Shown here: one piece after another, positions 24,171 to 39,479 of the stretch
Numbering within the stretch: position 1 is the stretch's first letter
Layout of the letters: the number at the start of each line of letters is the position of its first letter
DNA from: Bacteroidota bacterium
GTDB taxonomy: Bacteria; Bacteroidota; Bacteroidia; Bacteroidales; F082
DNA: 64,000 nucleotides
Reading direction: 5' to 3'
Assembly (NCBI GenBank): GCA_013203805.1
Contig: JABMPH010000507.1
Location: forward strand, 1 to 64,000
Notes under the pieces: generated by a model
What the model was told of the DNA's origin: nothing
Databases searched by the model: none
What the model saw: the letters and a program-made list of their open reading frames with translations, nothing else
Position numbers and translations under genes: made by a program

Positions 24171-26264
24171 ATGAAAAATAAGTATTTCAATCTAAAGCTC
24201 AAGTTCCAACTGTTTTACCCTGTATTGATTGCTCTTATTGTAGCCATTATTGTTTTTACATTTTTCCTTGTTAATATTAGCCGTGAGTCGATTTACCAAA
24301 TAGCCGAAAACGACATGTTACTTGAGGCAACAACCATTAAAAAAATGTTTGAACGAGAGCGTGAATTGAAGCTTGAAAATGTAAAAACTAACTTAAAAGT
24401 TGCCCATAGATTATTTTACGACAAACACCTTCGCTTCTCCAGAGTTATTGATAAAGTTGAAGGCACCAATCAATTTAGCCATATTAAGCATGAAATTAGT
24501 ATTAAACAATTATTATGGGGAGGAGAACCTCTTCTAAATTCAAATACTTTTCCCGATGAAACTTATGAGTTATTTGGTGGGACAACAACAATCTTTCAGA
24601 AAATTGACAGTGGTTTCTTGAGAATATCCACAAATGTACTCAATGAAAACAATGAACGAGCTGTAGGTACATTCATTCCTAACTCATCAATTGTAGCGTA
24701 TACAATTAACCAAGGTAAAGTTTATTACGGAAGGGCTTACGTGGTAAACGACTGGTACATTACTGCATATGAACCGATTTATATGGATAATGAATTAATT
24801 GGAGTACTATATGTGGGTGGAAAAGAAAAAGACATTGAAAAACTCCGCCTTACCCTTAACACCATCACAATTGGAGAAACCGGATTTCCTTTTGTGTTGG
24901 ATATTGATGGTGAAATAGTTTTACAACCCCTTGATTTCAGAAACAAAATAATCGACAAAACTCTTCAGAAACTGGTGATGTCGGATAGCGTAAAAATAAA
25001 ACGATTTACAAGCCCAGTTTATAATGTAGAATATCTTCTTGCCTACGATTACTATTCCGATTTTGGATTTCATATCGTTACAGCAATCCCCACAAAAGAG
25101 CTAACATATGTGCCATTAAAAACTATAATTGTTAATTCCATATTTATCGGGAGCATATTAGTTATCCTGATAATTATTATGATGTTTTCGATCACAACAA
25201 GAAGGGTTCACCGAATCCTAAGGGCAATAAAGGTAAGTAATACAAAACTTAAAACGACCAAAGAAGCACTAAAAAGAAGCGAAGAAAACTTTGAAACAAT
25301 ATTCCAAAATAGTAGCGATGAGATATTTGTAAGTGACTTGCAGGGCAATATTATTGAAGTTAATGATCAGGCCAGTAAATCACTTGGTTATTCACATCAA
25401 GAACTTCTGCAGATGAATATTCTAGACCTTAAACCGTTAAAACAAGCTGAATTATTTCTTAAATATCGAAAAACTATTATTGAAGAAGGGGCATATCTAT
25501 ATGACTCAGAATACATAACAAACTCAGGTGATACAATCCCCGTTGAAACAAACAGCAGGGTACTGGAATTCAATGGAGAAACAGTAATTTTAAGTATTTC
25601 ACGTAACCTGGCTAAGCGGAAAGAAATGGAACGAAAAGTTCTAAGCGCTGTTATTCAAACTGAGGAAAAAGAGCGTGAACGATTTTCAAAAGACATGCAT
25701 GATGGCATAGGACCTTTACTTTCTACCATAAAGCTTTATGTAAACGAACTTGGATCTGCCGAAATTGGCAAAAAAGAGAAAATCGAATTTGTTGATCAGG
25801 TAAATAAAATGCTTGATGATGCTGTTACAAGCATTCGCGAGATATCGAATAATCTGATGCCACGAGTTATCCACGAATATGGGCTTGTAAAAGCTCTGGA
25901 GGCTTTTTGCGAGAAAGTAAATCAAACGGGTAAAATTTATGTTGATTTCAATACCACTGGTATCGAATATTCGCTTGACAAAAATGTCCAACTAATATTA
26001 TTTCGGGTAATTAGTGAGCTTCTAACCAATACCATAAAACACGCTAAAGCAAAAAGTGCATACATTCAACTGCAAAAATCCGACGACAATATTTCACTGA
26101 TATTTACTGATGATGGTATTGGGTTCGACAGCAAAACAGTTATGGAAAACAAAAATACCGGCATAGGCCTCAAAAGTATAGTTAGCCGCATAAAATCAAT
26201 AAATGGTAATTGTGAAATTATTAGTAAAGAAGGAAAAGGATTTAAAATTATTATTGAGATTTAA
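24171..26264 (+). CDS. Cache-PAS sensor histidine kinase (NarX/LytS-like HisKA_3 type)
   Basis: The 697-residue inner-membrane kinase has TM1 (about 14-35), a double-Cache-like periplasmic sensor (about 40-315, with GTFIPNSSIVAYTINQG, YITAYEPIYMD and GETGFPFVLD), TM2 (about 322-343), a PAS domain (about 373-480) and a dimerisation helix with the phosphoacceptor H510 in KDMHDGIGP. An ATPase domain follows (TNTIKHAKA, DDGIGFD, GIGLKSI). The HxDGIGP box pairs with LuxR-type response regulators. Such a regulator follows at 26519. The Cache ligand is unknown; small organic acids or amines are common for this fold. Confidence 0.9.
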   Translation: MKNKYFNLKLKFQLFYPVLIALIVAIIVFTFFLVNISRESIYQIAENDMLLEATTIKKMFERERELKLENVKTNLKVAHRLFYDKHLRFSRVIDKVEGTNQFSHIKHEISIKQLLWGGEPLLNSNTFPDETYELFGGTTTIFQKIDSGFLRISTNVLNENNERAVGTFIPNSSIVAYTINQGKVYYGRAYVVNDWYITAYEPIYMDNELIGVLYVGGKEKDIEKLRLTLNTITIGETGFPFVLDIDGEIVLQPLDFRNKIIDKTLQKLVMSDSVKIKRFTSPVYNVEYLLAYDYYSDFGFHIVTAIPTKELTYVPLKTIIVNSIFIGSILVILIIIMMFSITTRRVHRILRAIKVSNTKLKTTKEALKRSEENFETIFQNSSDEIFVSDLQGNIIEVNDQASKSLGYSHQELLQMNILDLKPLKQAELFLKYRKTIIEEGAYLYDSEYITNSGDTIPVETNSRVLEFNGETVILSISRNLAKRKEMERKVLSAVIQTEEKERERFSKDMHDGIGPLLSTIKLYVNELGSAEIGKKEKIEFVDQVNKMLDDAVTSIREISNNLMPRVIHEYGLVKALEAFCEKVNQTGKIYVDFNTTGIEYSLDKNVQLILFRVISELLTNTIKHAKAKSAYIQLQKSDDNISLIFTDDGIGFDSKTVMENKNTGIGLKSIVSRIKSINGNCEIISKEGKGFKIIIEI

Positions 26265-26285
26265 TTATATAAACTGGATAAAATT

Positions 26286-26352
26286 GTGGAAATAAGGGAA
26301 TAAGGAATTAATATTATGGAACAGAATATTCCCCTTATTTCCCGATTCCCTC
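26286..26352. repeat. Inverted repeat of the GGGAAATAAGGG family, copy 1
   Basis: GGAAATAAGGGAATAAGG (26288-26305) pairs with CCCCTTATTTCC (26331-26342) through a ~10-bp perfect stem. The arms are purine-rich on one side and pyrimidine-rich on the other. The same short words recur at 32033-32097 and 51624-51732. It sits between the kinase and its regulator gene. Confidence 0.55.
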
Positions 26353-26518
26353 CTATACCCACAACGAATTTTTCTTAAACCGTGGCAAAAATGAGTTAAT
26401 CAACTGATCCACTAGTTACGATGGTTTTTATTCAAAACTCAATCATAAACCCTATGGTAATTATTAAATAAAAACTAAGGATGTTACATTTCTTATTAAT
26501 TTCGCACTACTAATCCAT

Positions 26519-27169
26519 ATGGTAAATACTGTTAAAATAATAATTGTTGACGATCACGAAATCTTTCGTAACGGACTAAAAATGGTTCTTGGAAAGCTTG
26601 ATTATGTTGATGTTGTTGGTGAAGCTGCAAATGGCCAGGATTTCCTTGATTTAATACGACAAGTAAGTTGTGATATTGTACTGATGGATATTGAGATGCC
26701 CATTATGTCGGGTATTGATGCCACAAAAATTGCACTTAAAGAAAATCCAGAACTAAAAGTTATTTCACTAACGATGTTCACCGACGATAATTATATTCAA
26801 AGTATGATGGATGCAGGCGTGAGGGGGTTTCTGGTAAAAAATATCAATAAAGAAACTCTTAACAAAGCAATCACAACTGTTGCAGCAGGTGGCAATTACT
26901 ATTCCGAAGAATTATTTAAATTCTTTACACGTAAAATCAACACTAAAGAAGAAAAACCAAGTGGTGATGAAGTAAAGTTTACTTCCCGCGAAAAAGAAAT
27001 TCTACAATTGCTTTCCGAAGGATTAAGCAACAAAGAAATTGCAGATGTGTTGTACGTTAGTGAGCGTACTGTTGTCGGACATAAGTCGAACATGCTTGCT
27101 AAAACAGGGTGTAAAAGTGCTATTAGTTTATTGGCTTATGCATTGCGTCATAGGCTGATAATTATTTAG
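26519..27169 (+). CDS. NarL/LuxR-family response regulator
   Basis: The 216-residue DNA-binding regulator has an N-terminal receiver domain (about 1-122, with the acidic pocket VDDHE, phospho-Asp in LMDIEMP and the K in FLVKNI) and a C-terminal LuxR-type HTH (about 150-216; FTSREKEILQLLSEGLSNKEIA split across helices). It is the cognate partner of the Cache kinase upstream. It is the only protein between 24171 and 39479 with a DNA-binding output domain, so it is a candidate controller of the hydrogenase genes. Confidence 0.92.
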   Translation: MVNTVKIIIVDDHEIFRNGLKMVLGKLDYVDVVGEAANGQDFLDLIRQVSCDIVLMDIEMPIMSGIDATKIALKENPELKVISLTMFTDDNYIQSMMDAGVRGFLVKNINKETLNKAITTVAAGGNYYSEELFKFFTRKINTKEEKPSGDEVKFTSREKEILQLLSEGLSNKEIADVLYVSERTVVGHKSNMLAKTGCKSAISLLAYALRHRLIII

Positions 27170-27345: not shown

Positions 27346-27846
27346 ATGAAAAACTTAAAAAAAATTATAATCGTAGACGATGACATCGACGTTATCACAG
27401 CTGTTGAATCAATCTTAACCGCTAAAGGTTTTAAAGTATTTTCAGCAAATGACAAAAAAGAAGGTTTAGAATTAATCATTAAAGAAAACCCCGATTTGGC
27501 AATTCTTGATGTAATGATGACAACTCAATTTGAAGGCTTTGAACTTGCAGAATCAATTGTAAAAAACCAAACTCTAAAACACATTCCTATTATTATTCAA
27601 ACTTCCATTGAAGTATTAACTACAACTAAACCAAGTGTTCAGGCAATGGCTCAGCAATTCAGACAAAATCCTGATTATTCAGATTTAAGAGTAATTCTTG
27701 TAAAAGATTTAGTAACAGGTAATGCCGGAGTTGACTATCTAAACGAAAATAATGAAACCGTTTGGTTTCCGGTAAATGCATTTGTTAAAAAACCAGTAAA
27801 TGCATCGATACTCATTCCTGAAATTGAGAAACTCCTTAATAAATAA
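27346..27846 (+). CDS. Stand-alone receiver (response regulator) protein
   Basis: The 166-residue protein is a receiver domain with the VDDDID acidic pocket (about 9-14), the phospho-Asp in AILDVMM (about 54) and the conserved Lys in FVKKPV near the C-terminus. An insertion of about 40 residues lies between the phospho-site region and the Lys strand. There is no output domain. It is the first gene of the hydrogenase block, 33 bases before hydC, and probably takes part in phosphotransfer with the sensor kinases encoded downstream. A weak -7 (TACTTTTA, 27310-27317) lies before it. Confidence 0.85.
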   Translation: MKNLKKIIIVDDDIDVITAVESILTAKGFKVFSANDKKEGLELIIKENPDLAILDVMMTTQFEGFELAESIVKNQTLKHIPIIIQTSIEVLTTTKPSVQAMAQQFRQNPDYSDLRVILVKDLVTGNAGVDYLNENNETVWFPVNAFVKKPVNASILIPEIEKLLNK

Positions 27847-27879: not shown

Positions 27880-28344
27880 ATGGGAGATATAAAAAATATA
27901 TTTAACAGATACCCCGAAGCAGGTCGAGATAATCTTATTCCAATATTACAAGATATCCAGACTGCTGAGGGACATCTTTCGAAAGAGTCGATTGTTAAAG
28001 TAGGCTCATTTTTAAACATACCTTCAAGTAAAATATTTGGTGTAGCCACATTTTATAACCAATTCCGATTTCAACCCGTTGGTAAGTATCATGTTCAAGT
28101 TTGTCGTGGAACTGCATGCCATGTTTTGGGTTCGGTGACTGTGCTACAGGAAATAGAAAAACAATTAAAAGTGAAAGCCGGTGATACCACACGTGATGGA
28201 TTATTCAGTATCGAGGTAGTTGCATGCATTGGAGCATGTGGATTGGCTCCGGTAATTTCAATAAATGGGGAGTTTTATGCTAAGGTTACATCAACATCTC
28301 TTGCCCTAATTATTGAAACTTATAAAAACAAGGAGGAAGAATAG
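27880..28344 (+). CDS. hydC: HydC, NuoE-like [2Fe-2S] subunit of [FeFe]-hydrogenase
   Basis: The 154-residue subunit has a helical N-domain (YPEAGRDNLIPILQDIQ) and a thioredoxin-like domain binding one [2Fe-2S] cluster through C-x4-C (CRGTAC) and C-x3-C (CIGAC). It matches NuoE and the gamma subunit of trimeric NAD-linked [FeFe]-hydrogenases. It is followed directly (0 bases) by hydB. Its place in the complex is to pass electrons between the flavin of HydB and the remaining centres. Confidence 0.93.
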   Translation: MGDIKNIFNRYPEAGRDNLIPILQDIQTAEGHLSKESIVKVGSFLNIPSSKIFGVATFYNQFRFQPVGKYHVQVCRGTACHVLGSVTVLQEIEKQLKVKAGDTTRDGLFSIEVVACIGACGLAPVISINGEFYAKVTSTSLALIIETYKNKEEE

Positions 28345-30285
28345 ATGAATAGGATACTGGGAAATATTCAAGATTTATTACTCAACAAAGTAGTTGGTAG
28401 TGAAGATAAAAAAGTTGCCGATCGCAAACTTACACTTCTTAGAAGAGAAAAGGTTAACAAGCCAGTTATATACTTGGGTGCAGGTACTTGCGGACTAGGT
28501 GCCGGTGCCGCGAAAACCCTAATTAGCATTAGCTCATATCTTAACGCAAACTCAATAGATGCTGAAATAGTTGAAGTAGGATGTATTGGATTATGCACCG
28601 CCGAACCAATTGTAGATATACAATTACCCGACCATAACAGGATTTCATTTTGCAATGTTACTAGTAACAAGGTTGATAATCTTCTCGACTCAGTATTTAA
28701 TCTGGAACTACCAAAGGAAATTGAAACCCTTTATCAGTTTCCAACCTTAACTAATCGCTCATGGGAGGGTATAATAACACATACTGAACATCCATATTTT
28801 AAAAAGCAATTGCGCCTAGTACTTAAAAACTGTGGCACACTAAACCCTGTTAGTATTGATGAATATATTGCGGGTGGTGGTTATGATGCATATCTATCAA
28901 CCATTAATAGTTATGATTCATTGCAAGTGTGTAACATGGTTGAAGAAAGCGGACTTCGTGGTCGTGGTGGTGGTGGTTTTACCACTGGGATGAAATGGAA
29001 ATTTGCACTAAACACCAAAGCTGACCAAAAGTACTTAATATGTAATGCAGATGAAGGCGACCCTGGTGCATTTATGGACAGAGCTGTAATTGAAGGCGAT
29101 CCACACCGCTTATTAGAGGGTATGATGATTGCTGCATATGGAATAGGTGCTACAAAATCATATGTATATATAAGAGCTGAATATCCTTTGGCAATTAAGA
29201 GATTAAATATTGCATTGGAACAGGCAAGAGAATATGGCTTGCTAGGTAAAAATATATTTGGCAGTGGAGTTGACTTTGAGATAAAAGTTAAAATGGGAGC
29301 CGGAGCATTTGTTTGTGGTGAAGAAACAGCATTGATTAAAAGTATTGAAGGGAAAAGAGGGATGCCAATACCACGTCCTCCATTTCCAGCAGTTAAAGGA
29401 TTATTCGATAAACCAACCGTTATTAATAATGTAGAAACTCTGTCGTGTCTACCCGAAATTATTCCAAACGGATTAAACAGATTCAAATCAATTGGTACAG
29501 AGAAAAGTAAAGGCACCAAAGTATTTGCCCTAAGTGGTAAAGTTGCACTTACAGGCTTGGTGGAAGTTCCAATGGGGACAACAATTAGAGAGGTAATTTT
29601 CGGTATTGCCGGAGGGATCCCAAATAATAAAAAATTCAAATCGGTTCAAATTGGAGGACCATCCGGCGGCTGCATTACCGAAGAGAATTTAGACATTGAG
29701 GTTGATTACGATTCACTGTTAACCATAGGTGCCATGATGGGTTCGGGTGGTTTGGTTGTAATGGACGAAGACACCCGTATGGTTGATGTTGCAAAATTCT
29801 TTATGGATTTTATCCAGAGAGAAAGTTGTGGCAAATGTATCCCATGTCGTGAGGGAACCCGAAGAATGCTCGAAATTCTTGAAAGCATCACTCATAAACC
29901 TGTTAATGCAGCTCAAAATGAAGCCCTTGAAAGGTTTAAAGGAATAACTCAACTCGAAAAACTTGGGAAAGTTATAAAAGAAACATCGCTATGCGGACTT
30001 GGTCAAACAGCCCCAAACCCGGTATTAAGTACGCTCCATTGGTTTAGAGAAGAATATGAAGAACACATCTTCGATAGAAAATGCCGCTCAAATGTATGTA
30101 CCGAACTTAGAACTTATACAATTGATGTTTATAGTTGTACCGGATGTGCAATCTGTGCAAAAGAATGTCCAACTGATGCAATTATAGGGAGTCGTAAAAC
30201 ACCTCATTTCATAGTTGATGATAAATGTATTAGCTGTGGAACTTGCTTCGATGTTTGCAAATTCGGTTCAATAGTAATCTCTTAA
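28345..30285 (+). CDS. hydB: HydB, NuoF-like flavin/NAD(H)-binding hydrogenase subunit
   Basis: The 646-residue subunit combines four modules. An N-terminal thioredoxin-like [2Fe-2S] domain spans about 35-100 (GAGTCGLGAGA, GCIGLC). The NuoF FMN/NADH module spans about 190-480 (RGRGGGGFTTGMKW, DEGDPGAF, GAGAFVCGEETALI). A [4Fe-4S] cluster sits at ESCGKCIPCREGTRR (about 492-506). A C-terminal 2x[4Fe-4S] ferredoxin completes it (CTGCAICAKECP and CISCGTCFDVCK). This is the architecture of electron-bifurcating HydB, which links NADH (and ferredoxin) to HydA. The gene starts at the base after the hydC stop. Confidence 0.95.
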   Translation: MNRILGNIQDLLLNKVVGSEDKKVADRKLTLLRREKVNKPVIYLGAGTCGLGAGAAKTLISISSYLNANSIDAEIVEVGCIGLCTAEPIVDIQLPDHNRISFCNVTSNKVDNLLDSVFNLELPKEIETLYQFPTLTNRSWEGIITHTEHPYFKKQLRLVLKNCGTLNPVSIDEYIAGGGYDAYLSTINSYDSLQVCNMVEESGLRGRGGGGFTTGMKWKFALNTKADQKYLICNADEGDPGAFMDRAVIEGDPHRLLEGMMIAAYGIGATKSYVYIRAEYPLAIKRLNIALEQAREYGLLGKNIFGSGVDFEIKVKMGAGAFVCGEETALIKSIEGKRGMPIPRPPFPAVKGLFDKPTVINNVETLSCLPEIIPNGLNRFKSIGTEKSKGTKVFALSGKVALTGLVEVPMGTTIREVIFGIAGGIPNNKKFKSVQIGGPSGGCITEENLDIEVDYDSLLTIGAMMGSGGLVVMDEDTRMVDVAKFFMDFIQRESCGKCIPCREGTRRMLEILESITHKPVNAAQNEALERFKGITQLEKLGKVIKETSLCGLGQTAPNPVLSTLHWFREEYEEHIFDRKCRSNVCTELRTYTIDVYSCTGCAICAKECPTDAIIGSRKTPHFIVDDKCISCGTCFDVCKFGSIVIS

Positions 30286-30296
30286 AACCTCAGAAA

Positions 30297-32021
30297 ATGG
30301 TTACTACAATAAACGTAAATAATAAAGAATTTCAGGCAGCACAAGGGGAAACTATCCTTGAGGTTCTAAATAGAAATGGAATAAAAGTGCCTACCTTATG
30401 TCATCTTAAAAACTCAATGCCAACAGGCGCTTGTAGGATGTGTGTTGTTGAGGACGTGAATACTGGCAAACTAATTACAGCATGCTCATTTCCGGTTATT
30501 CCGGGAATGCAGATTAAAACTCATAGCCAAAGAGTTGTTGAATCAAGAAAAACTATCATTGAATTATTATTATCAAACCATCCCGACGATTGCCTTTATT
30601 GTGTTAGAAACAAAAACTGTGAGCTTCAAGATTTAAGTGAAGAACACCATGTTAGAGAAAGGAGAATCAGAGGTCGTAAAAACAGTCAAAAACTTGATTT
30701 GTCAAGTGCATCAATTGTACGCGATCCTGAGAAATGCGTGCTTTGTGGTAGATGCGTTACTGTTTGTGAAGATGTAATGGGAGTGGCATGTATAGATATA
30801 ATAAATCGGGGAAATAAGTCAGTTGTTGGCACCTCATTTAATCAGGGTTTAAATACTTCGAGTTGTATTAATTGTGGTCAGTGTATTATGGTATGCCCAA
30901 CCGGTGCCTTAACTGAAAAAAATCATTTTGCTGAAATTCAGGATGCACTAAACAATCCTACTAAAAAAGTTGTTATACAATATGCTCCTTCAATAAGTGT
31001 TTCCATGGCCGAGGAATTAGGTATGGAATCGGGCAAAGATATTAATGGAATACTAAATGCAGCCCTTCGAAAAGTGGGCTTCGACAATGTTTTTGATTCA
31101 TCTTTTTCTGCCGATTTAACTATTATGGAAGAATCAGCCGAACTGGTACAACGGATTACCGAGGGTGGAGTTCTGCCAATGATAACAAGCTGTTGTCCGG
31201 GATGGGTAAAATATGCCGAAGAGTTTTATTCGGAGTTAATTCCAAATCTATCTTCATGCAAATCGCCTCAGCAAATGCTAGGTGCTATTATCAAATCATA
31301 TTTTGCAGAAAAAGAAAATCTACAACCCGAGGAAATATATTCGGTGGCAATTATGCCATGCACTGCAAAAAAGTTTGAAGCACAACGTGAAGAAATGACT
31401 CAGGCAGGAATAAGTGATGTTGATGCTGTACTTACAACTCGTGAGCTCACAAAGTTTTTAAAACTTTACGGCATCGATATGTTCAACATTTCACCAGAGT
31501 TAACTGATTCGCCAATGGGATTTAGAAGTACTGCCGGCAAGCTGTTTGGTGCTTCGGGTGGGGTTATGGAAGCTGCCATCAGAACAGCACATTTTACCAT
31601 AACTGGTAAAGAACTTGTTAATTTCCAGATACCTCAAATACGAGGACTGGAGCATAGAAAAGAAGCAAAATTAAAAATCGGTGACCTTGAACTTGGAGTT
31701 GCTGTAGTAAATGGAATGGCAAATGCGCGTGAACTTCTTGATGAAATTAAAAATGGTCGTAAGGATATTCATTTTGTAGAAGTAATGGCATGCCCGGGAG
31801 GATGTATCGGAGGAGGTGGTCAACATATCGGAACCAGCGAAGAAGAACTAAAGGCCAGGATGAAAGCTCTTTATAGGATAGATGAAAATGAAACCCTAAA
31901 GGTATCACATAAAAATCCTGAAATTATTGAACTCTACAACAATTATCTTGGAAAACCTCTTGGGCATAAAAGTCATAGTTTACTACACACTAAATATACA
32001 AAACGTGAGGTAATGATATAA
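30297..32021 (+). CDS. hydA: HydA, catalytic [FeFe]-hydrogenase subunit
   Basis: I start HydA at ATG 30297, because the in-frame ATG at 30243 lies inside hydB and adds 18 unrelated residues. The resulting 574 residues equal the length of Clostridium CpI and the key residues fall at the same numbers. The proton-transfer C299 and H-cluster ligand C300 are in TSCCPGW, C355 in MPCTAKK, and C499 and C503 in EVMACPGGCIGGGG. N-terminal domains bind a [2Fe-2S] (CHLKNSMPTGACRMC), a His-Cys3 [4Fe-4S] (HPDDCLYC) and two [4Fe-4S] clusters (CVLCGRC, CINCGQC). It catalyses H2 evolution or uptake. The longer Thermotoga HydA C-terminal ferredoxin domain is absent. Confidence 0.96.
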   Translation: MVTTINVNNKEFQAAQGETILEVLNRNGIKVPTLCHLKNSMPTGACRMCVVEDVNTGKLITACSFPVIPGMQIKTHSQRVVESRKTIIELLLSNHPDDCLYCVRNKNCELQDLSEEHHVRERRIRGRKNSQKLDLSSASIVRDPEKCVLCGRCVTVCEDVMGVACIDIINRGNKSVVGTSFNQGLNTSSCINCGQCIMVCPTGALTEKNHFAEIQDALNNPTKKVVIQYAPSISVSMAEELGMESGKDINGILNAALRKVGFDNVFDSSFSADLTIMEESAELVQRITEGGVLPMITSCCPGWVKYAEEFYSELIPNLSSCKSPQQMLGAIIKSYFAEKENLQPEEIYSVAIMPCTAKKFEAQREEMTQAGISDVDAVLTTRELTKFLKLYGIDMFNISPELTDSPMGFRSTAGKLFGASGGVMEAAIRTAHFTITGKELVNFQIPQIRGLEHRKEAKLKIGDLELGVAVVNGMANARELLDEIKNGRKDIHFVEVMACPGGCIGGGGQHIGTSEEELKARMKALYRIDENETLKVSHKNPEIIELYNNYLGKPLGHKSHSLLHTKYTKREVMI

Positions 32022-32121: not shown

Positions 32122-34110
32122 ATGGATTTAATAAATCTGGATAACATACTAGTTTATACTGTAAAAGATCGCTGCCGTGTGTGTTACACATGTGTTAGAG
32201 AATGTCCGGTTAAAGCCATTAAAATAGTTAACGGTCAGGCCGAAGTTATGCCCGAAAGATGTATCGCTTGTGGTAACTGTGTAAACATTTGCAGCCAGGG
32301 GGCTAAGACTTTCAATAAGCAAGTTGATAAGGTTGAAGATTTATTGAAAAGCGATGAATTTGTAATAGCTGCTGTTGCACCAAGTTTTCCGGCAGAATTT
32401 TTAGAGATTGATAATAGCGATCAATTTGTTGGAATGCTAAGAGAACTTGGCTTCCAAAAAGTAATAGAGGTTTCATTTGGAGCCGACCTTGTTGCTCAAA
32501 AATATAATGAGTTAATAAACAATAATTCAAGTCAATCATACATATCATCCGATTGTCCTGCAGTTGTTGCATGTGTTGAAAAACATCATCCCGATCTGGT
32601 AAAAAATCTTGCTCCTATAGTTTCACCGATGGTAGCAATTGGTCGCGTTATTAAAAAGAAATATCCAAATAATGTTAAGATTGTTTTTATCGGACCCTGC
32701 ATTGCAAAAAAAGGTGAATCAGATGAAATAGATAACTCCATTACTTTCACCGAGCTAAGGCAAATGTTTCAATCAAAAGGGATTACTTACACCAACATTG
32801 ATGGAAGTAATTTCGACCCGCCATATGCCGGAAAAGGCTCGGTTTTTCCTGTAAGTCATGGGTTGTTAAATACAATGGGTAAGGCATCAGATGTTACTGA
32901 ATGTGATATTATAGTTGCAGATGGGAAAAAGGATTTTATGGATGCTATCGCTGAATTTGAAAATGGCAATCTTGTTGGCAAACATCTAAATCTACTTTGC
33001 TGTGATGGATGCATAATGGGTCCGGGAATGTCGAAAAACGGAAGCCGCCTTAATCGTAAAAATAGAATAAGCGATTACGCTAAAAATAAATTAGTTCATC
33101 TGGATAAAGAGGAATGGAAGAATCAAATTGAAGAATTTAAGTCAATTGATTTCTCCCGAACATTCAATCCTGACGACAGACGTATAGTTGAGCCTTCAGA
33201 AAAAGAAATCGCAAATGCATTAAAAAAAATTGGCAAATTCGATCACATGGATCATCTAAACTGTAAAGCCTGTGGTTACGACACCTGTAGGGCTCATGCA
33301 ATCGCCATTATAGTTGGTTTGGCAGAAAATGAAATGTGCCTGCCCTATTCCATCGAAATAATGCACCAAACCATCAAAAATCTCAATATCTCAAACGAGA
33401 AGCTGGCAACTGCCCGTCAGGCACTTAAACAATCAGAAAAGTTAGCCAATATGGGTCAATTATCAGCCGGCATTGCCCATGAACTAAATAATCCTCTTGG
33501 TGTTATATCAATGTATAGCAATATTCTTAAAGATGAATCAAAAGATGGAGATCCAATTAGAGAAGACCTTGACCTTATTGTTGAACAGGCCGATCGCTGC
33601 AAAAAAATTGTAGGTGGATTATTAAATTTTGCAAGAAAAAATCAGGTAGTCCCTGAAAAATTAAATGTAATTGAATTCTGTAAACGTAGTTTACAATCGG
33701 TAGTTATACCCATAAATGTCAAAACAAAGTTTTTGTCTGATACTAAAATGCTTGAAGCATATATTGATAAGGATCAGATGATGCAAGTACTTACAAATTT
33801 AGAGAAAAATGCCATTGATGCAATGCCTGATGGAGGAAAACTAACGGTAAGTGTTGATGACCAAAATAACGAATTTAGTATAACAATCTCAGATGAAGGT
33901 TGTGGCATTGAAGAAGAAAATATGGAGAAAATATTTACTCCATTTTTTACAACAAAATCCATTGGAAAAGGAACAGGCATGGGCCTTCCATTAGTATATG
34001 GAATAGTAAAAATGCACAAAGGACAAATAAACGTTATATCGAATGCTATCAAAAAAAATGGCCAAACAGGCACAAAATTTATCATTCGACTACCAAAAAA
34101 CCAATTATAA
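32122..34110 (+). CDS. HydS-like sensory [FeFe]-hydrogenase fused to a histidine kinase
   Basis: The 662-residue cytoplasmic protein joins a hydrogenase-like sensor to a kinase. In order it has a 2x[4Fe-4S] ferredoxin (about 17-60), an H-cluster domain (about 75-330), a small [4Fe-4S] FeS domain (CKACGYDTC, about 383-391), a coiled linker (about 410-435), a dimerisation helix with phospho-acceptor H453 (AGIAHELNNP) and an ATPase domain (DEGCGIE, GTGMGLPL). The H-cluster motifs are altered in the way known for sensory hydrogenases. D144-C145 replaces the catalytic Cys-Cys, C193 lies in GPCIAKK, and C293 and C297 lie in LLCCDGC. The proton-relay Cys is therefore Asp, so turnover should be slow and H2 binding may drive signalling. 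It lies between hydA and a receiver gene. Ligand and direction of control are inferred. Confidence 0.9.
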   Translation: MDLINLDNILVYTVKDRCRVCYTCVRECPVKAIKIVNGQAEVMPERCIACGNCVNICSQGAKTFNKQVDKVEDLLKSDEFVIAAVAPSFPAEFLEIDNSDQFVGMLRELGFQKVIEVSFGADLVAQKYNELINNNSSQSYISSDCPAVVACVEKHHPDLVKNLAPIVSPMVAIGRVIKKKYPNNVKIVFIGPCIAKKGESDEIDNSITFTELRQMFQSKGITYTNIDGSNFDPPYAGKGSVFPVSHGLLNTMGKASDVTECDIIVADGKKDFMDAIAEFENGNLVGKHLNLLCCDGCIMGPGMSKNGSRLNRKNRISDYAKNKLVHLDKEEWKNQIEEFKSIDFSRTFNPDDRRIVEPSEKEIANALKKIGKFDHMDHLNCKACGYDTCRAHAIAIIVGLAENEMCLPYSIEIMHQTIKNLNISNEKLATARQALKQSEKLANMGQLSAGIAHELNNPLGVISMYSNILKDESKDGDPIREDLDLIVEQADRCKKIVGGLLNFARKNQVVPEKLNVIEFCKRSLQSVVIPINVKTKFLSDTKMLEAYIDKDQMMQVLTNLEKNAIDAMPDGGKLTVSVDDQNNEFSITISDEGCGIEEENMEKIFTPFFTTKSIGKGTGMGLPLVYGIVKMHKGQINVISNAIKKNGQTGTKFIIRLPKNQL

Positions 34111-34120
34111 AATAACAGTC

Positions 34121-34513
34121 ATGTTGAAGGAAAAAAAACTAGTATTAATTGTTGACGATGACCCAGATTATTTGTTTCAACTAAAAACCCATGTGGAAAA
34201 CTTTGGTTTTGATGTAATTACAGCCACTAGTGTTGCTGAGGCTGAAAAAGCTTTGACACAAAAACCCCATCTGGCTATTCTGGATCTAATGATGGAAACT
34301 CAGGATGCAGGATTTGTACTTAGCTATAAAATCAAAAAGTTGTATCCTGATGTTCCTGTAATAATAGTTACAGCTGTAACCGCAGAAACCGGATTAAACT
34401 TCCACCTCGACAGTGAAGAAGATCGACAGTGGATAAAAGCCGATTTATATCTTGAAAAAGGTATAAGAAGCGACCAGTTACACAGAGAAATTAGTAAGCT
34501 TCTTAAATTATAA
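34121..34513 (+). CDS. Single-domain response regulator
   Basis: The ATG at 34121 gives a 130-residue receiver; the in-frame ATG at 34043 lies within the sensor-kinase gene. The acidic pocket is IVDDDPD (about 10-16) and the phospho-Asp is in AILDLMM (about 54). The C-terminal half has an inserted SEEDRQWIKADLYLEK segment like that of the receiver at 27346. There is no output domain. It starts 10 bases after the HydS-like kinase and is its likely phosphotransfer partner. Confidence 0.85.
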   Translation: MLKEKKLVLIVDDDPDYLFQLKTHVENFGFDVITATSVAEAEKALTQKPHLAILDLMMETQDAGFVLSYKIKKLYPDVPVIIVTAVTAETGLNFHLDSEEDRQWIKADLYLEKGIRSDQLHREISKLLKL

Positions 34514-34531: not shown

Positions 34532-35653
34532 ATGGAAAAGTTAAAAGTATTAGTAGTTGACGATGAACCAGGTATTCGTTCCGGAGTAATTCGTATATTA
34601 AAAAACTATACAATAGGCTTCCCCTTTATGGAAGAAGACTTTTCTTTTGAAATATCTGAGGCCGAAACCGGAGAAAAAGCATTGGAAATAATTACCAATG
34701 ATGGTGCCGATATTGTTCTTCTCGACAACAAGCTTCCCGGTATTCAGGGGATCGAGGTTCTTGAGAAAATTAGCAAGATGAGAATTGATACTGCCGTGAT
34801 GATGATTACTTCATATGCATCACTCGATATCGCTGTAAAAGCCACAACCTTTGGAGCATACAATTTCGTTCCAAAACCCTTTACTCCAGATGAATTAAAA
34901 TCTTCCATCGAAAATATTAGCAAGCACCTCTTCCTTAAAAGGATGACCAGTAAGATGAAGGAGGAAGGTAAACAGATTAGGTTTCAATTTCTTTCGGTAT
35001 TATCACACGAACTTAAGTCACCTTTAAATGCAATTGAGGGGTATTTAAAAATAATGGAAGAAAAACAAGTGGGAGAAAATATTAACGACTATATGTCGAT
35101 GATAGATCGCTCACTTATACGAATAAAAGGTATGCGCAATCTTATAATTGATATGCTCGACCTAACTCGTCTTGAATCAGGAAAGAAGAAACGCACTCTG
35201 GTTGTTGTTGATTTAAATGAGATGGCTCTTATGGCAATTGATAGCATTAAACCTATGGCTATCCAACATAACATCAATGTAGTTTCTGAAATTGATGATG
35301 ATGTTACTATGAATGCTGACCATGATGAATTAGAAATCATCTTTAACAACCTGCTATCGAATGCTGTAAAATATAATCGCGATAACGGAAATATTCGTGT
35401 CCAGGTTAAGAAATCTGATAAGGAAATAAAGATAATAGTAAGTGATACCGGTATAGGAATATCCGAAGAAGATATCCCTAAACTATTCGAAGAGTTTTCA
35501 CGCATTAAAACAAGTGAAACCCGTAACATAAGCGGAACAGGATTGGGTCTTTCAATAACAAAAAAAATGATAGAGCTTTACAAAGGCACCATCAATATTG
35601 ATAGCAAACCCAATTTTGGCACAACATTCACAGTAGTTCTACCAACTCTGTAG
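34532..35653 (+). CDS. Receiver-histidine kinase hybrid
   Basis: The 373-residue soluble protein begins with a receiver domain (about 1-135; VDDEPG, phospho-Asp in LLDNKLPG, Lys in FVPKPFT) and continues with a HisKA domain whose phospho-acceptor is H159 (LSVLSHELKSPLN). An ATPase domain follows (NNLLSNAVKYN, DTGIGIS, GTGLGLSI). It lacks a sensor of its own, so its kinase activity is probably set by phosphorylation of its own receiver by the upstream kinase. It lies 18 bases after the single-domain regulator. Confidence 0.9.
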   Translation: MEKLKVLVVDDEPGIRSGVIRILKNYTIGFPFMEEDFSFEISEAETGEKALEIITNDGADIVLLDNKLPGIQGIEVLEKISKMRIDTAVMMITSYASLDIAVKATTFGAYNFVPKPFTPDELKSSIENISKHLFLKRMTSKMKEEGKQIRFQFLSVLSHELKSPLNAIEGYLKIMEEKQVGENINDYMSMIDRSLIRIKGMRNLIIDMLDLTRLESGKKKRTLVVVDLNEMALMAIDSIKPMAIQHNINVVSEIDDDVTMNADHDELEIIFNNLLSNAVKYNRDNGNIRVQVKKSDKEIKIIVSDTGIGISEEDIPKLFEEFSRIKTSETRNISGTGLGLSITKKMIELYKGTINIDSKPNFGTTFTVVLPTL

Positions 35654-35727: not shown

Positions 35728-37155
35728 ATGAAGTTTACTCCTGAAAAATATAACATTCCCGACGAACCACAAGTTCCATATATCGACACAAAAGAAATTT
35801 GGAACTATCTATACAGTGCTAAGCCAACAAGTGAGAGGATTAAAGAAATAGTTTCCAAATCACTAAATAAGGAAAGGCTAAACCTTGAGGAAGTGGCTAC
35901 ACTTATTCAGGCTAATTCAAGCGATCAAATTGAAATGATAAAGACTGGGGCACGACAGCTTAAACAGAAAGTTTATGGAAAACGCATTGTGCTTTTTGCT
36001 CCATTATATGTTGGTAATTTATGCCAGAATAATTGTGAGTACTGTGGTTTTAAAGCGACCAACAAAGATACTGTTCGTAAAACCCTAAACAATAATGAAC
36101 TTATTAAGAATGTTGAAGCTCTGGAACAAAACGGACAAAAGCGACTTATTCTTGTATATGGCGAACATCCAAGATATACTCCTGAGTTCATAGCCGAAAA
36201 TATTAAAACAGTATATGGTGTAAAAACCGGAAACGGTGAAATACGCAGGGTGAATATTAACGCCGCCCCTTTGAGTATCAACGGCTTTAAAACTGTTAAA
36301 GATGCTGGAATAGGCACTTATCAGGTATTTCAGGAAACTTACGATCCTGAGGCTTACAAAAAATATCATAAGGGTGGTCGGAAAGCTGCATATGATAATC
36401 GCCTTGTATCTCTCGACAGAGCTCAAGAAGCAGGACTAGATGATGTTGGTATTGGCGTGCTTTTTGGATTAGCCGACTGGAGATTTGATGTTATGGGACT
36501 AGTTAGACATACTAACCACCTCGAAGCCTGCTATAATGTAGGTCCTCATACAATTTCATTCCCACGCCTGCAAGATGCTGCTGAGTTTCAAGTTGATCCT
36601 GAATTTGCAGTAAGTGATGAAGAATTTACCAGAATTATTGCTATACTTCGATTGGCAGTGCCCTATACCGGAATGATACTTACTGCCCGTGAACCAAAAC
36701 ATATCCGCAAAGAAGTTCTTCAATATGGTTGTTCACAGGTAGATGCCGGTACAAAAATCGAGTTGGGTGCATATTCAGAAAAAGAGAATAAGAAACAAGA
36801 TCTTAATCAGGAACAATTCCTAATTAATGACGACCGCTCGCTTGGAGAAGTAATAGATGAGTTGATTGAAGGAGATTATTTACCCTCATTTTGCACCGCT
36901 TGTTACCGTAAAGGAAGAACAGGAGAACACTTTATGGAGTTTTCTGTTCCCGGATTTATAAAACGATACTGTACTCCCAATGCCATACTTACTTTAGCAG
37001 AGTATATAATTGACTATGCAAAAGATGATACAGCTACTAAAGGTTGGTTATTGATTGATAAAAATATTGGAGAACTAAATGAGCCAAAACTCGAGGCTTC
37101 ACTAAAGATGAAAATTGATAGGATTATGCATGGTGAATGCGATCTTTACTATTAA
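35728..37155 (+). CDS. hydG: HydG, radical SAM tyrosine lyase for H-cluster assembly
   Basis: The 475-residue enzyme cleaves tyrosine to p-cresol, CO and cyanide and builds the Fe(CO)2(CN) synthon of the H-cluster. The radical SAM cysteines C99, C103 and C106 are in LCQNNCEYCGF. The auxiliary-cluster region is at the C-terminus (SFCTACYRKGRTGEHFM). Length and motifs match the family. It starts a run of three maturase genes; the next start is 13 bases away. Confidence 0.95.
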   Translation: MKFTPEKYNIPDEPQVPYIDTKEIWNYLYSAKPTSERIKEIVSKSLNKERLNLEEVATLIQANSSDQIEMIKTGARQLKQKVYGKRIVLFAPLYVGNLCQNNCEYCGFKATNKDTVRKTLNNNELIKNVEALEQNGQKRLILVYGEHPRYTPEFIAENIKTVYGVKTGNGEIRRVNINAAPLSINGFKTVKDAGIGTYQVFQETYDPEAYKKYHKGGRKAAYDNRLVSLDRAQEAGLDDVGIGVLFGLADWRFDVMGLVRHTNHLEACYNVGPHTISFPRLQDAAEFQVDPEFAVSDEEFTRIIAILRLAVPYTGMILTAREPKHIRKEVLQYGCSQVDAGTKIELGAYSEKENKKQDLNQEQFLINDDRSLGEVIDELIEGDYLPSFCTACYRKGRTGEHFMEFSVPGFIKRYCTPNAILTLAEYIIDYAKDDTATKGWLLIDKNIGELNEPKLEASLKMKIDRIMHGECDLYY

Positions 37156-37168
37156 TAATGTTAAAGCA

Positions 37169-38386
37169 ATGAAAAAAGGAAAAGATCTTAAGCCACATAT
37201 TGGAATTTTTGGAAAAAGAAATAATGGTAAAAGTTCTTTTATCAATATGATTACAGGACAGGATGTTGCTATTGTATCAGATCTTGCCGGAACAACAACT
37301 GATCCTGTAAAAAAGTCGGTGGAGATTTTTGGAATAGGGCCAGTAATTGTTATTGATACTGCCGGGGTTGATGATGTAGGAGAATTGGGAGAAAAACGAA
37401 TTGCCAAAACAATGGCAATAATTAACACTATCGATCTGGCAGTACTTTTAATTGCAGATAATAGTTTTGATTCATTCGAAAAACAATTAATATTTGAATT
37501 TAATAATCTTGATATTCCGTACCTCATCTTCCATAATAAATCCGATGCTTTTCCCCTTCTGGAACAAACCAGAAAACAAATTACTGCAGAAACAAGTCAA
37601 AAATGTTATGATATAAACACTGTAACTAGTAGTAGCTTAGCATTTATAACAAACCTGATGCGAGAGAAAATTCCAGCATCAGTTTACATTAAGCCGGCAT
37701 TGCTAGAAGGTCTTGTTAAGAAAAAAGATGTTGTACTTCTTATTACACCAATAGATTCAGAAGCTCCCGAAGGGCGAATGATATTACCTCAGCAAATGGC
37801 AATTAGGGATGTGCTGGATCACAATTGTATCTGTATTACAGTTAGAGAAACTGAACTTGAGGATTTCATGAATATGGGAATCAAACCAGCCCTTGCAATT
37901 ACTGACAGTCAGGCCTTCGACTTTGTTTCAAAAATTATTCCCGAAGAAATTCCTTTAACAGGATTTAGCATTGTTTTTGCCCGAATGAAATCAAATTTCG
38001 AGAAGTATTTGGAAGGAACACCTCATCTTGCAAAACTTAAGGACGGCGACAAGGTTTTAATCCTGGAATCATGTACCCACCATGTTAGCTGTGAAGATAT
38101 TGGAAGGTTTAAACTGCCAAAATGGATTACAAAATTTACTGGAAAGAAAATCGGTTTTGATGTTATAGCTGGATTAGATAGCCTGCAAAATGAAATAACT
38201 GAGTATGCGATGATTATACAATGTGGCGGCTGTGTTGTTACACGTAAACAACTAAACAACAGACTTAAGCCAGCAATTGATGCCAGTATTCCCGTGTCAA
38301 ACTACGGTATGGCCATTGCATTTATGAATGGAATTTTTGAAAGAGCTGTAAAACCATTTGTGACCACAAAAAGCATGACCAAATAA
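37169..38386 (+). CDS. hydF: HydF, GTPase scaffold for H-cluster maturation
   Basis: I use the ATG at 37169 (405 residues), 13 bases after hydG; earlier in-frame ATGs overlap hydG. The N-terminal GTPase has P-loop GKRNNGKSS (about 15-23) and switch motif DTAGVDD. The C-terminal cluster domain has CTH (in ESCTHHVSC) and CGGC. In the canonical HydF pattern the second motif is preceded by His (HCxxC), whereas here it is QCGGC, a known type of variation. HydF carries the [2Fe] precursor to apo-HydA. Confidence 0.95.
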   Translation: MKKGKDLKPHIGIFGKRNNGKSSFINMITGQDVAIVSDLAGTTTDPVKKSVEIFGIGPVIVIDTAGVDDVGELGEKRIAKTMAIINTIDLAVLLIADNSFDSFEKQLIFEFNNLDIPYLIFHNKSDAFPLLEQTRKQITAETSQKCYDINTVTSSSLAFITNLMREKIPASVYIKPALLEGLVKKKDVVLLITPIDSEAPEGRMILPQQMAIRDVLDHNCICITVRETELEDFMNMGIKPALAITDSQAFDFVSKIIPEEIPLTGFSIVFARMKSNFEKYLEGTPHLAKLKDGDKVLILESCTHHVSCEDIGRFKLPKWITKFTGKKIGFDVIAGLDSLQNEITEYAMIIQCGGCVVTRKQLNNRLKPAIDASIPVSNYGMAIAFMNGIFERAVKPFVTTKSMTK

Positions 38387-38405: not shown

Positions 38406-39479
38406 ATGACAACCGTTTACCAAATATTAAGTGAAGAGAGATTTGATAAAGAATCTATAGTTACACTATTAAAATCAGAAGGTAATGACAAGGAATTACT
38501 ATTTGTAAAAGCGGCGGAAGTAAAGCACGAATATATAGGAAATATGGTTCACTTACGTGGACTTATCGAACTCACTAACCAATGCTCAAAAAATTGCTTC
38601 TATTGTGGCATTGGAGCATCCAACAAAAAGCTTCAGCGATTTATGATTAGTTTACCGGAAGTGGAAGAAGCAATTCAATTTTCCTACAACAACAACTATG
38701 GATCAATAGTTATTCAAACTGGTGAAATACAAAGTGAGAGTTTTACACAGGCTATTGAAGATATCCTGTTTTCCATCACGAAAATAGGCAATGGAAAACT
38801 CGGTGTAACACTTTCATGCGGAGAACAGAGTATTAGAACTTATCGCCGATGGAAAGCTGCAGGTGCCCACCGCTATTTACTTCGTATCGAATCATCTAAT
38901 AAAGAACTTTATTACAAACTACATCCAAATAATAAAAAGCATAACTACGATATCAGGCTTGAAGCATTAAAAAATTTACAAAAGTGTGGTTATCAAACAG
39001 GAACAGGAGTAATGATTGGTTTACCATTTCAAACAATAGAAAACCTTGCAGATGATTTACTTTTCATGCGCGATTTAAATATCGACATGTGCGGAATGGG
39101 TCCTTACATTGAGCATGTTGACACCGAATTATACAAGTATAAAGACTTGGTTCCCACCAAAGAAGCCAGAGTTGATTTAAGTTTGAAAATGATTGCCATC
39201 CTACGAATTATGATGAAAGACATCAATATTGCAGCAACAACGGCAATGCAAACTCTTGTTGATGGTGGTCGTGAAATGGCGTTAGTGGCCGGAGCAAACA
39301 TCTTGATGCCAAATACAACACCGGGGCTTTATCGAGAGCAATATGCATTATATAATGATAAACCGGGGATTAACGAAGAGGCAGAGGATAGCAAACAGTC
39401 TATCGAAAAACTTATTTATAGAGCAGGTTGTGTAATTGCCTATGGGGAAATGGGTAATTCAAGGCATTTTTTGTTATGA
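38406..39479 (+). CDS. hydE: HydE, radical SAM maturase for the H-cluster
   Basis: The 357-residue radical SAM enzyme acts on the HydG product during assembly of the [2Fe] subcluster. The SAM cluster ligands are C60, C64 and C67 in NQCSKNCFYCGI. The rest is a complete TIM barrel with GEIQSE, GVMIGLPFQT and MGPYIEH. It follows hydF by 19 bases. With hydG and hydF the maturation set is complete. Confidence 0.95.
   Translation: MTTVYQILSEERFDKESIVTLLKSEGNDKELLFVKAAEVKHEYIGNMVHLRGLIELTNQCSKNCFYCGIGASNKKLQRFMISLPEVEEAIQFSYNNNYGSIVIQTGEIQSESFTQAIEDILFSITKIGNGKLGVTLSCGEQSIRTYRRWKAAGAHRYLLRIESSNKELYYKLHPNNKKHNYDIRLEALKNLQKCGYQTGTGVMIGLPFQTIENLADDLLFMRDLNIDMCGMGPYIEHVDTELYKYKDLVPTKEARVDLSLKMIAILRIMMKDINIAATTAMQTLVDGGREMALVAGANILMPNTTPGLYREQYALYNDKPGINEEAEDSKQSIEKLIYRAGCVIAYGEMGNSRHFLL

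Follow-up and report, generated by a model that had tools for sequence, protein, structure and literature searches.

The window, a 64,000-nucleotide stretch of the genome of a Bacteroidota bacterium, carries at 32122-34110 (+) an uninterrupted open reading frame of 662 amino acids, with exact coordinates. Its product, HydS-HK, is probably a kinase-fused group C-type HydS that passes the state of its H-cluster through a helical linker to the kinase, and from there to a stand-alone receiver (REC1) and a receiver-kinase protein (REC-HK). Judged by its domains and gene neighbourhood it is of the same kind as BfuT, so that the design is already published and not new. HydS-HK is not a chance reading frame, since 13 further genomes from the same order carry full-length orthologues of this architecture, 97-54% identical (clade 1), the gene order is kept, and the gene is under purifying selection (Ka/Ks about 0.06-0.07 over its whole length), as are all domains.

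Table 1. Features of the hydS-HK gene and of its neighbours in the window.
Feature	Coordinates	Strand	Basis or remark
REC0, second stand-alone receiver, upstream of hydC	27346..27846	+	
HydC subunit	27880..28344	+	Identified by its translation and by the gene order kept in relatives
HydB subunit	28345..30285	+	Identified by its translation and by the gene order kept in relatives
HydA, catalytic NADH-dependent group A [FeFe]-hydrogenase	30297..32021	+	NF040763; TSCCPGW/MPC/CPGGC intact
HydS-HK (BfuT-like), group C-type [FeFe]-hydrogenase sensor and histidine kinase	32122..34110	+	662 aa
N-terminal 2x[4Fe-4S] domain, C18/21/24/28 and C47/50/53/57	32152..32307	+	Pfam Fer4_10/Fer4; all eight Cys invariant
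H-cluster domain; ligands C145, C193, C294, C297; D144, G191, K196, E199	32359..33024	+	Fe_hyd_lg_C, residue counts, fold
D144-C145 codons, L1 motif SSDCPA	32551..32556	+	
L3 motif L291-C297 (LLCCDGC)	32992..33012	+	Lacks one residue relative to the canonical Cx3C; C293 peculiar to clade 1
C-terminal [4Fe-4S] motif Cx2Cx4Cx16C (C381, C384, C389, C406)	33253..33345	+	PF04060; four Cys invariant
Helical linker (predicted), cluster to kinase	33346..33450	+	Exceeds the linker of the sister kinase clade by one heptad
HisKA dimerisation/phosphoacceptor domain, H453 in AHELNNP	33451..33642	+	Pfam; residue conservation
HATPase_c catalytic domain; N, G1 (DxGxG), G2 (GxGTGxG) boxes	33766..34101	+	Pfam; residue conservation
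REC1, stand-alone receiver (D55, T84, K113) whose last strand is preceded by an insert; probably the phosphoryl acceptor	34121..34513	+	PF00072
REC-HisKA-HATPase protein (REC-HK), probable relay partner	34532..35653	+	
HydG H-cluster maturase	35728..37155	+	TIGR03955 over cut-off
HydF H-cluster maturase	37169..38386	+	TIGR03918 over cut-off
HydE H-cluster maturase	38406..39479	+	TIGR03956 over cut-off

Along the protein, matches over the Pfam cut-offs were obtained for Fer4_10 (residues 12-57), Fe_hyd_lg_C (80-301, E 7e-49), the FeS family PF04060 (378-408, E 6e-8), HisKA (444-507, E 4e-15) and HATPase_c (549-660, E 3e-25); no PAS domain was matched by Pfam at E 1e-3. The residues of the kinase H, N, G1 and G2 boxes are conserved across 24 kinase-fused homologues, in which the eight cysteines of the N-terminal ferredoxin domain and the four of the C-terminal cluster are invariant. 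In an AlphaFold2 model (pLDDT 71.6, pTM 0.50, with low confidence for residues 1-63, the surroundings of L3 and the linker), the H-domain fold aligns with the solved [FeFe]-hydrogenases CbA5H, CpI, DdHydAB and TmHydA/TmHydABC at Z of about 28-31. By sequence, the CpI entry of the PDB that matches HydS-HK best is 6glz, an engineered C299D variant. The original prediction had described a hydrogenase-derived sensor with a second Fe-S domain, fused to a full kinase, and the domains, the fold, the conserved kinase residues and the operon all back this description.

The active site was compared in an alignment of HydS-HK with the HydA of the window, plasmid-borne references from Clostridia and other Bacteroidota sensors; the sensor references from other phyla were plasmid records only. 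The equivalents of the CpI positions are D144 (C299), C145 (C300), G191 (M353), C193 (C355), K196 (K358), E199 (E361), C294 (C499) and C297 (C503). An Asp therefore occupies the position of the relay Cys just where it had been predicted, within the Fe_hyd_lg_C match, and both K196 and E199 are kept. Regarding the cluster ligands, predicted as C145, C193, C293 and C297, all four residues are present, but homology makes C294 the fourth ligand in place of C293. C145, C193, C294 and C297 are invariant in the 24 kinase-fused homologues, while residue 293 is Cys in 14/14 proteins of clade 1 and Phe in 16/16 of clade 2, the sister kinase clade; this points to C294 as the fourth ligand and disfavours C293. 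Judged by spacing, C293 could still be a cluster ligand, as it would restore Cx3C. The L3 motif reads LLCC-DGC in HydS-HK versus EVMACPGGC in the catalytic type, which corresponds to a deletion of one residue and to Cx2C instead of Cx3C. Both kinase-fused clades and most SpoIIE-linked relatives of 620 amino acids have Cx2C. The sequences of PAS type, MCP type and group A and the group D-like ones have Cx3C, and no catalytic enzyme in the alignment has the shortened form.

D144 is fixed in clade 1 only (14/14), with Pro, Ala or Ser at this position in clade 2. HydS-HK does not retain the group A relay C299-E279-S319-E282, as S319 corresponds to A164 and the E279 and E282 sites are variable or deleted in the alignment. 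Loss of the relay beyond C299 has been published for groups C and D, and replacement of M353 by Gly together with a non-conserved Cys at C299 has been reported for group C. According to HydDB-derived figures, the residue at the C299 position of sensory enzymes is Cys in 17%, Ala in 43%, Pro in 10% and Ser in 10% (quoted in PMC10055695), and in catalytic enzymes Asp is reported as the only replacement there that preserves activity (PMC10055695). By analogy, D144 would be compatible with a reactive H-cluster, since C299D keeps activity in those enzymes, though the remaining group A relay is missing; the exchange of Cys for Asp does not by itself imply a disabled relay. CpI C299D (PDB 6glz, 8pvm) resembles HydS-HK in having an Asp beside the H-cluster amine, but it retains the other relay residues and Cx3C, neither of which is retained in HydS-HK. 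We consider it unlikely, if worth stating, that the kinase-fused lineage has an H-cluster site of altered geometry (Cx2C L3, plus C293 and D144, both fixed in clade 1), perhaps tuned as a slow two-state switch and not as a catalyst, and that the same site in relatives without HydF and HydG is perhaps a plain Fe-S redox switch without [2Fe]. A natural Asp at the relay position and a shortened L3 are useful natural variants for H-cluster chemistry.

C406 and H453 lie 47 residues apart in clade 1 (14/14 proteins) and 40 apart in clade 2 (16/16). The step of seven residues is exactly one heptad and keeps the coiled-coil register, as expected if a coiled coil carries the signal, and it may be taken as indirect support for mechanical coupling of the cluster domain to the kinase. 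In the mechanism that we propose, HydG, HydF and HydE from the same gene run would build the H-cluster on C145, C193, C294 and C297, an occupancy that we infer, and its state would be set by binding of H2, the presumed signal, and/or by electrons entering via the N-terminal ferredoxin domain. The change would be relayed through the C-terminal [4Fe-4S] domain and the helical linker into the HisKA helices, where it would switch one of two activities, autophosphorylation at H453 or a phosphatase function that depends on the ExxN motif. HisKA kinases phosphorylate receiver domains, and the phosphate would pass to REC1 and/or the REC-kinase protein as presumed partners, adjusting the hydCBA system or fermentation as presumed outputs. 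In TamHydS, which reacts with H2, the gas does not reduce the C-terminal cluster (PMC13104023); this makes an electron path through the C-terminal cluster domain of HydS-HK doubtful and favours a conformational signal over electron transfer.

The genes lie in the order REC0, hydC, hydB, hydA, hydS-HK, REC1, REC-HK, hydG, hydF, hydE, all on the + strand and mostly with short gaps, with hydS-HK directly downstream of the hydA of a trimeric hydrogenase. The predicted location among genes for HydCBA and receivers is borne out by HydC, HydB, HydA, two receivers and a receiver-kinase; the presence of hydGFE in the same gene run is an addition to the earlier description. The HydA of the window belongs to NCBIfam group A6 (801 bits against a cut-off of 765), and it and HydS-HK are the only two Fe_hyd_lg_C proteins of the genome. 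The two receivers, REC-HK and HydS-HK form a phosphorelay-like set, and HydS-HK probably controls the neighbouring hydrogenase. It is plausible, by analogy with the published inference for group C enzymes, that H2 or redox state feeds this phosphorelay. No DNA-binding protein is encoded within the immediate hydS-rec1-rechk unit, and a search around the operon for Rex-like sites gave one weak match only, inside the REC-HK gene, which was dropped. In both REC1 and REC0 the strand with the conserved Thr is separated from that with the conserved Lys by an insert (in REC1, ETGxxF...WIKADxxLEK), which is conserved in orthologues. Upstream of the operon, at 24171-27169, there is a Cache-PAS-HisKA_3 kinase (24171) with a NarL-type regulator (26519), kept in several relatives; this pair is a possible separate input to the same genes.

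A search for related loci retrieved four, all from the same genus. Kinase-fused proteins of a further clade, clade 2, show about 40-46% identity over the sensor and are represented in 25 genomes of a phylum-wide sample of 395; 16 of these proteins were aligned and five more were read. All 14 clade 1 loci keep the order HydA-HydS-REC1-RECHK. Every clade 2 locus read keeps HydS-REC1-RECHK, including those with their first hydABC set at another place (G256, G303, G224, G196). REC1 adjoins hydS in every locus read of both clades, and the occurrence in G256 of the three genes without hydABC alongside indicates that hydS-rec1-rechk is a unit. A maximum-likelihood tree, built on roughly the 295 N-terminal residues, makes the SpoIIE-linked group of 620-aa proteins the sister of clade 1 (100/99). 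Their union with clade 2 is moderately supported (90/76) and stands apart from group A and a group D-like pair; RaHydS-type proteins form a branch of their own. The alignment with group C and D enzymes, suggested with the original prediction and carried out here, gave a group C-like Gly at the M353 site, and the tree placed HydS-HK outside groups A and D. Membership of group D (M2e) is ruled out by G191 at the M353 position, where group D has Ser or Thr, and by the tree.

In clade 1, HydF scores over its cut-off in all genomes, and in most loci hydGFE belongs to the hydS gene run. In nine of the 25 clade 2 genomes (G256, G091, G303, G224, G413, G164, G307, G071 and G196), HydG, sought by HMM and by protein search, and HydF are absent. 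These genomes are 99-100% complete, G164 being a single contig, and they keep a kinase-fused HydS and a HydA with intact motifs (TSCCPGW/MPC/CPGGC); HydE is found in only four of them (G091, G164, G307, G071). Assembly of the H-cluster requires HydE, HydF and HydG (PMC11736057). Either an unrecognised route of H-cluster maturation operates in the maturase-less genomes, or H-domain and [FeFe]-type proteins are used there without [2Fe]. Genome G027, also near-complete, likewise has a group A HydA with intact motifs and a group C sensor without HydG or HydF; the loci of all maturase-less genomes, the nine and G027, are L065, L068, L069 and L111-L124.

The nine genomes with HydS and HydA but without HydF and HydG keep alive, for the wider family, a redox role that is independent of the H-cluster. 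HydS-HK would then hold only a [4Fe-4S] cubane in its H-domain and report ferredoxin/NADH poise or Fe-S status, not H2. The shortened L3, the invariant cysteines of the N-terminal ferredoxin and a close relative in G031 that has lost all four H-cluster ligands agree with this alternative. However, clade 1 usually has HydGFE in the same gene run, and HydF in all members; C145, C193, C294, C297, K196 and E199 are all kept; and intact motifs are present in the HydA of the maturase-less genomes too, so that another maturation route may lie behind the missing HydF and HydG. We therefore regard a sensor without [2Fe] as possible but rather doubtful. Sensing through the H-cluster is preferred, with the Cx2C L3, the nine genomes, the ligand-less relative in G031 and the moderate quality of the structural model as the points against it. 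A sensor of inhibitory gas or oxidative damage, in which O2, CO or NO would destroy or ligate the H-cluster or exposed Fe-S sites, switch the kinase and so protect the hydrogenase, is very improbable: the protein has several Fe-S sites besides the H-cluster, and sensory enzymes are reported to respond unusually to CO and O2, but no specific sequence feature points to this role and the reported CO tolerance of HydS enzymes argues against sensing of CO. Gating of the kinase by the H-domain is putative, yet an incidental fusion, with the H-domain as a docking module only and a kinase that is constitutive or set by partners, is hardly credible given the purifying selection on all domains, the exact linker length within each clade and the one-heptad step between clades.

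A kinase output, which the original prediction took to be atypical of sensory hydrogenases, has precedents. HydDB (2016) designates [FeFe] group C1 as 'histidine kinase-linked' (PMC5037454), and a 2024 paper describes BfuT with a histidine kinase domain, encoded beside sub-type V bifurcating hydrogenases in Hydrogenedentota, Caldithrix and Bacteroidota such as Tenuifilum and Williamwhitmania (PMC11406978). Compared by published description, BfuT of sub-type V has, like HydS-HK, a HydS-type sensor with a kinase and is encoded downstream of the bfuA/hydA of a trimeric hydrogenase. Some Bacteroidota clusters in that paper have a second bfuT upstream of bfuC, a layout also seen in L092 and L093, whereas the shortened L3, the relay Asp, the linker step and the REC1/REC-HK partners of HydS-HK are not described for BfuT in the text consulted (PMC11406978). 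The published labels of fused-kinase members conflict, C1 in HydDB versus C3 for BfuT. Petrimonas mucosa ING2E5A_0849 is a C1 protein encoded close to hndABCD (PMC7768429); HydDB C1 and this case share with HydS-HK a kinase-tied sensory [FeFe]-hydrogenase near a bifurcating hydrogenase, in a Bacteroidales species, but the kinase is a separate gene in two described C1 cases and fused in HydS-HK.

Among sensors of other phyla, TmHydS of Thermotoga maritima (group C, M2f) has, like HydS-HK, 2x[4Fe-4S], no C299, Gly at M353 and a C-terminal Cx2Cx4Cx16C, but its relay residue is Ala in place of Asp, and it carries a PAS domain in place of a kinase; the PAS domain that marks the TmHydS-type M2f is missing from HydS-HK. 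TamHydS of Thermoanaerobacter mathranii (group D, M2e) shares the C-terminal Cx2Cx4Cx16C, the lack of PAS and the proximity to a bifurcating hydrogenase, whereas in group D the M353 position is Ser/Thr and a fused kinase is lacking, against Gly and a kinase in HydS-HK. The RaHydS-type protein of Ruminococcus albus 7 (plasmid pRUMAL01, L101) resembles HydS-HK in its N-terminal layout, PF04060 motif and Gly at M353; it differs in keeping the relay Cys, a Cx3C L3 and a separate SpoIIE phosphatase neighbour. A limited literature search found no published description of the Cx2C L3, the fixed D144 and C293, the heptad step or the REC1/REC-HK unit, which is weak evidence of novelty.

H2 sensing by group C and D [FeFe]-hydrogenases is still considered putative, partly because their signalling partners are not known. 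With the sensor joined to its own kinase, a single-tube assay can follow how added H2 affects autophosphorylation and the passage of phosphate to REC1, and the unusual changes at the metal site make hydrogen sensing in HydS-HK directly testable.

The same H-domain frame carries other outputs, in MCP-fused proteins, a hybrid kinase (L080) and PAS-bearing proteins. The hybrid kinase (L080:4425-8468, -) has 1348 amino acids, with an MCP-linked-type H-domain, PAS, HisKA, HATPase, two receivers and Hpt, and its kinase fusion is probably of separate origin. A HydS-like protein at L093:4230-6173 (-) has lost all Cys ligands of the H-cluster (SNDPV, SPLIASK, YKEFLMG) and kept the N- and C-terminal Fe-S motifs; its gene adjoins a SpoIIE-like phosphatase and is divergent from an intact kinase-fused cassette. 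The catalytic-type HydA at L092:9196-10908 (+), beside two HydS genes, has His in place of the relay Cys (IATHCPSW) and LTTCTARKEE as L2; neither this HydA (G037) nor the G031 copy reaches the group A cut-off. Second HydA copies with TSCSPGW, that is with Ser at the C300 ligand position, occur at L061:12182-14116, in L066, L067, L068, L069 and L070 and in others, and the same Ser change is noted for BfuA (PMC11406978). In two genomes, a gene judged by eye to encode a Rex-like redox repressor lies directly after hydS-rec1-rechk (L092:14473-15102 and L093:14256-14876, both +).
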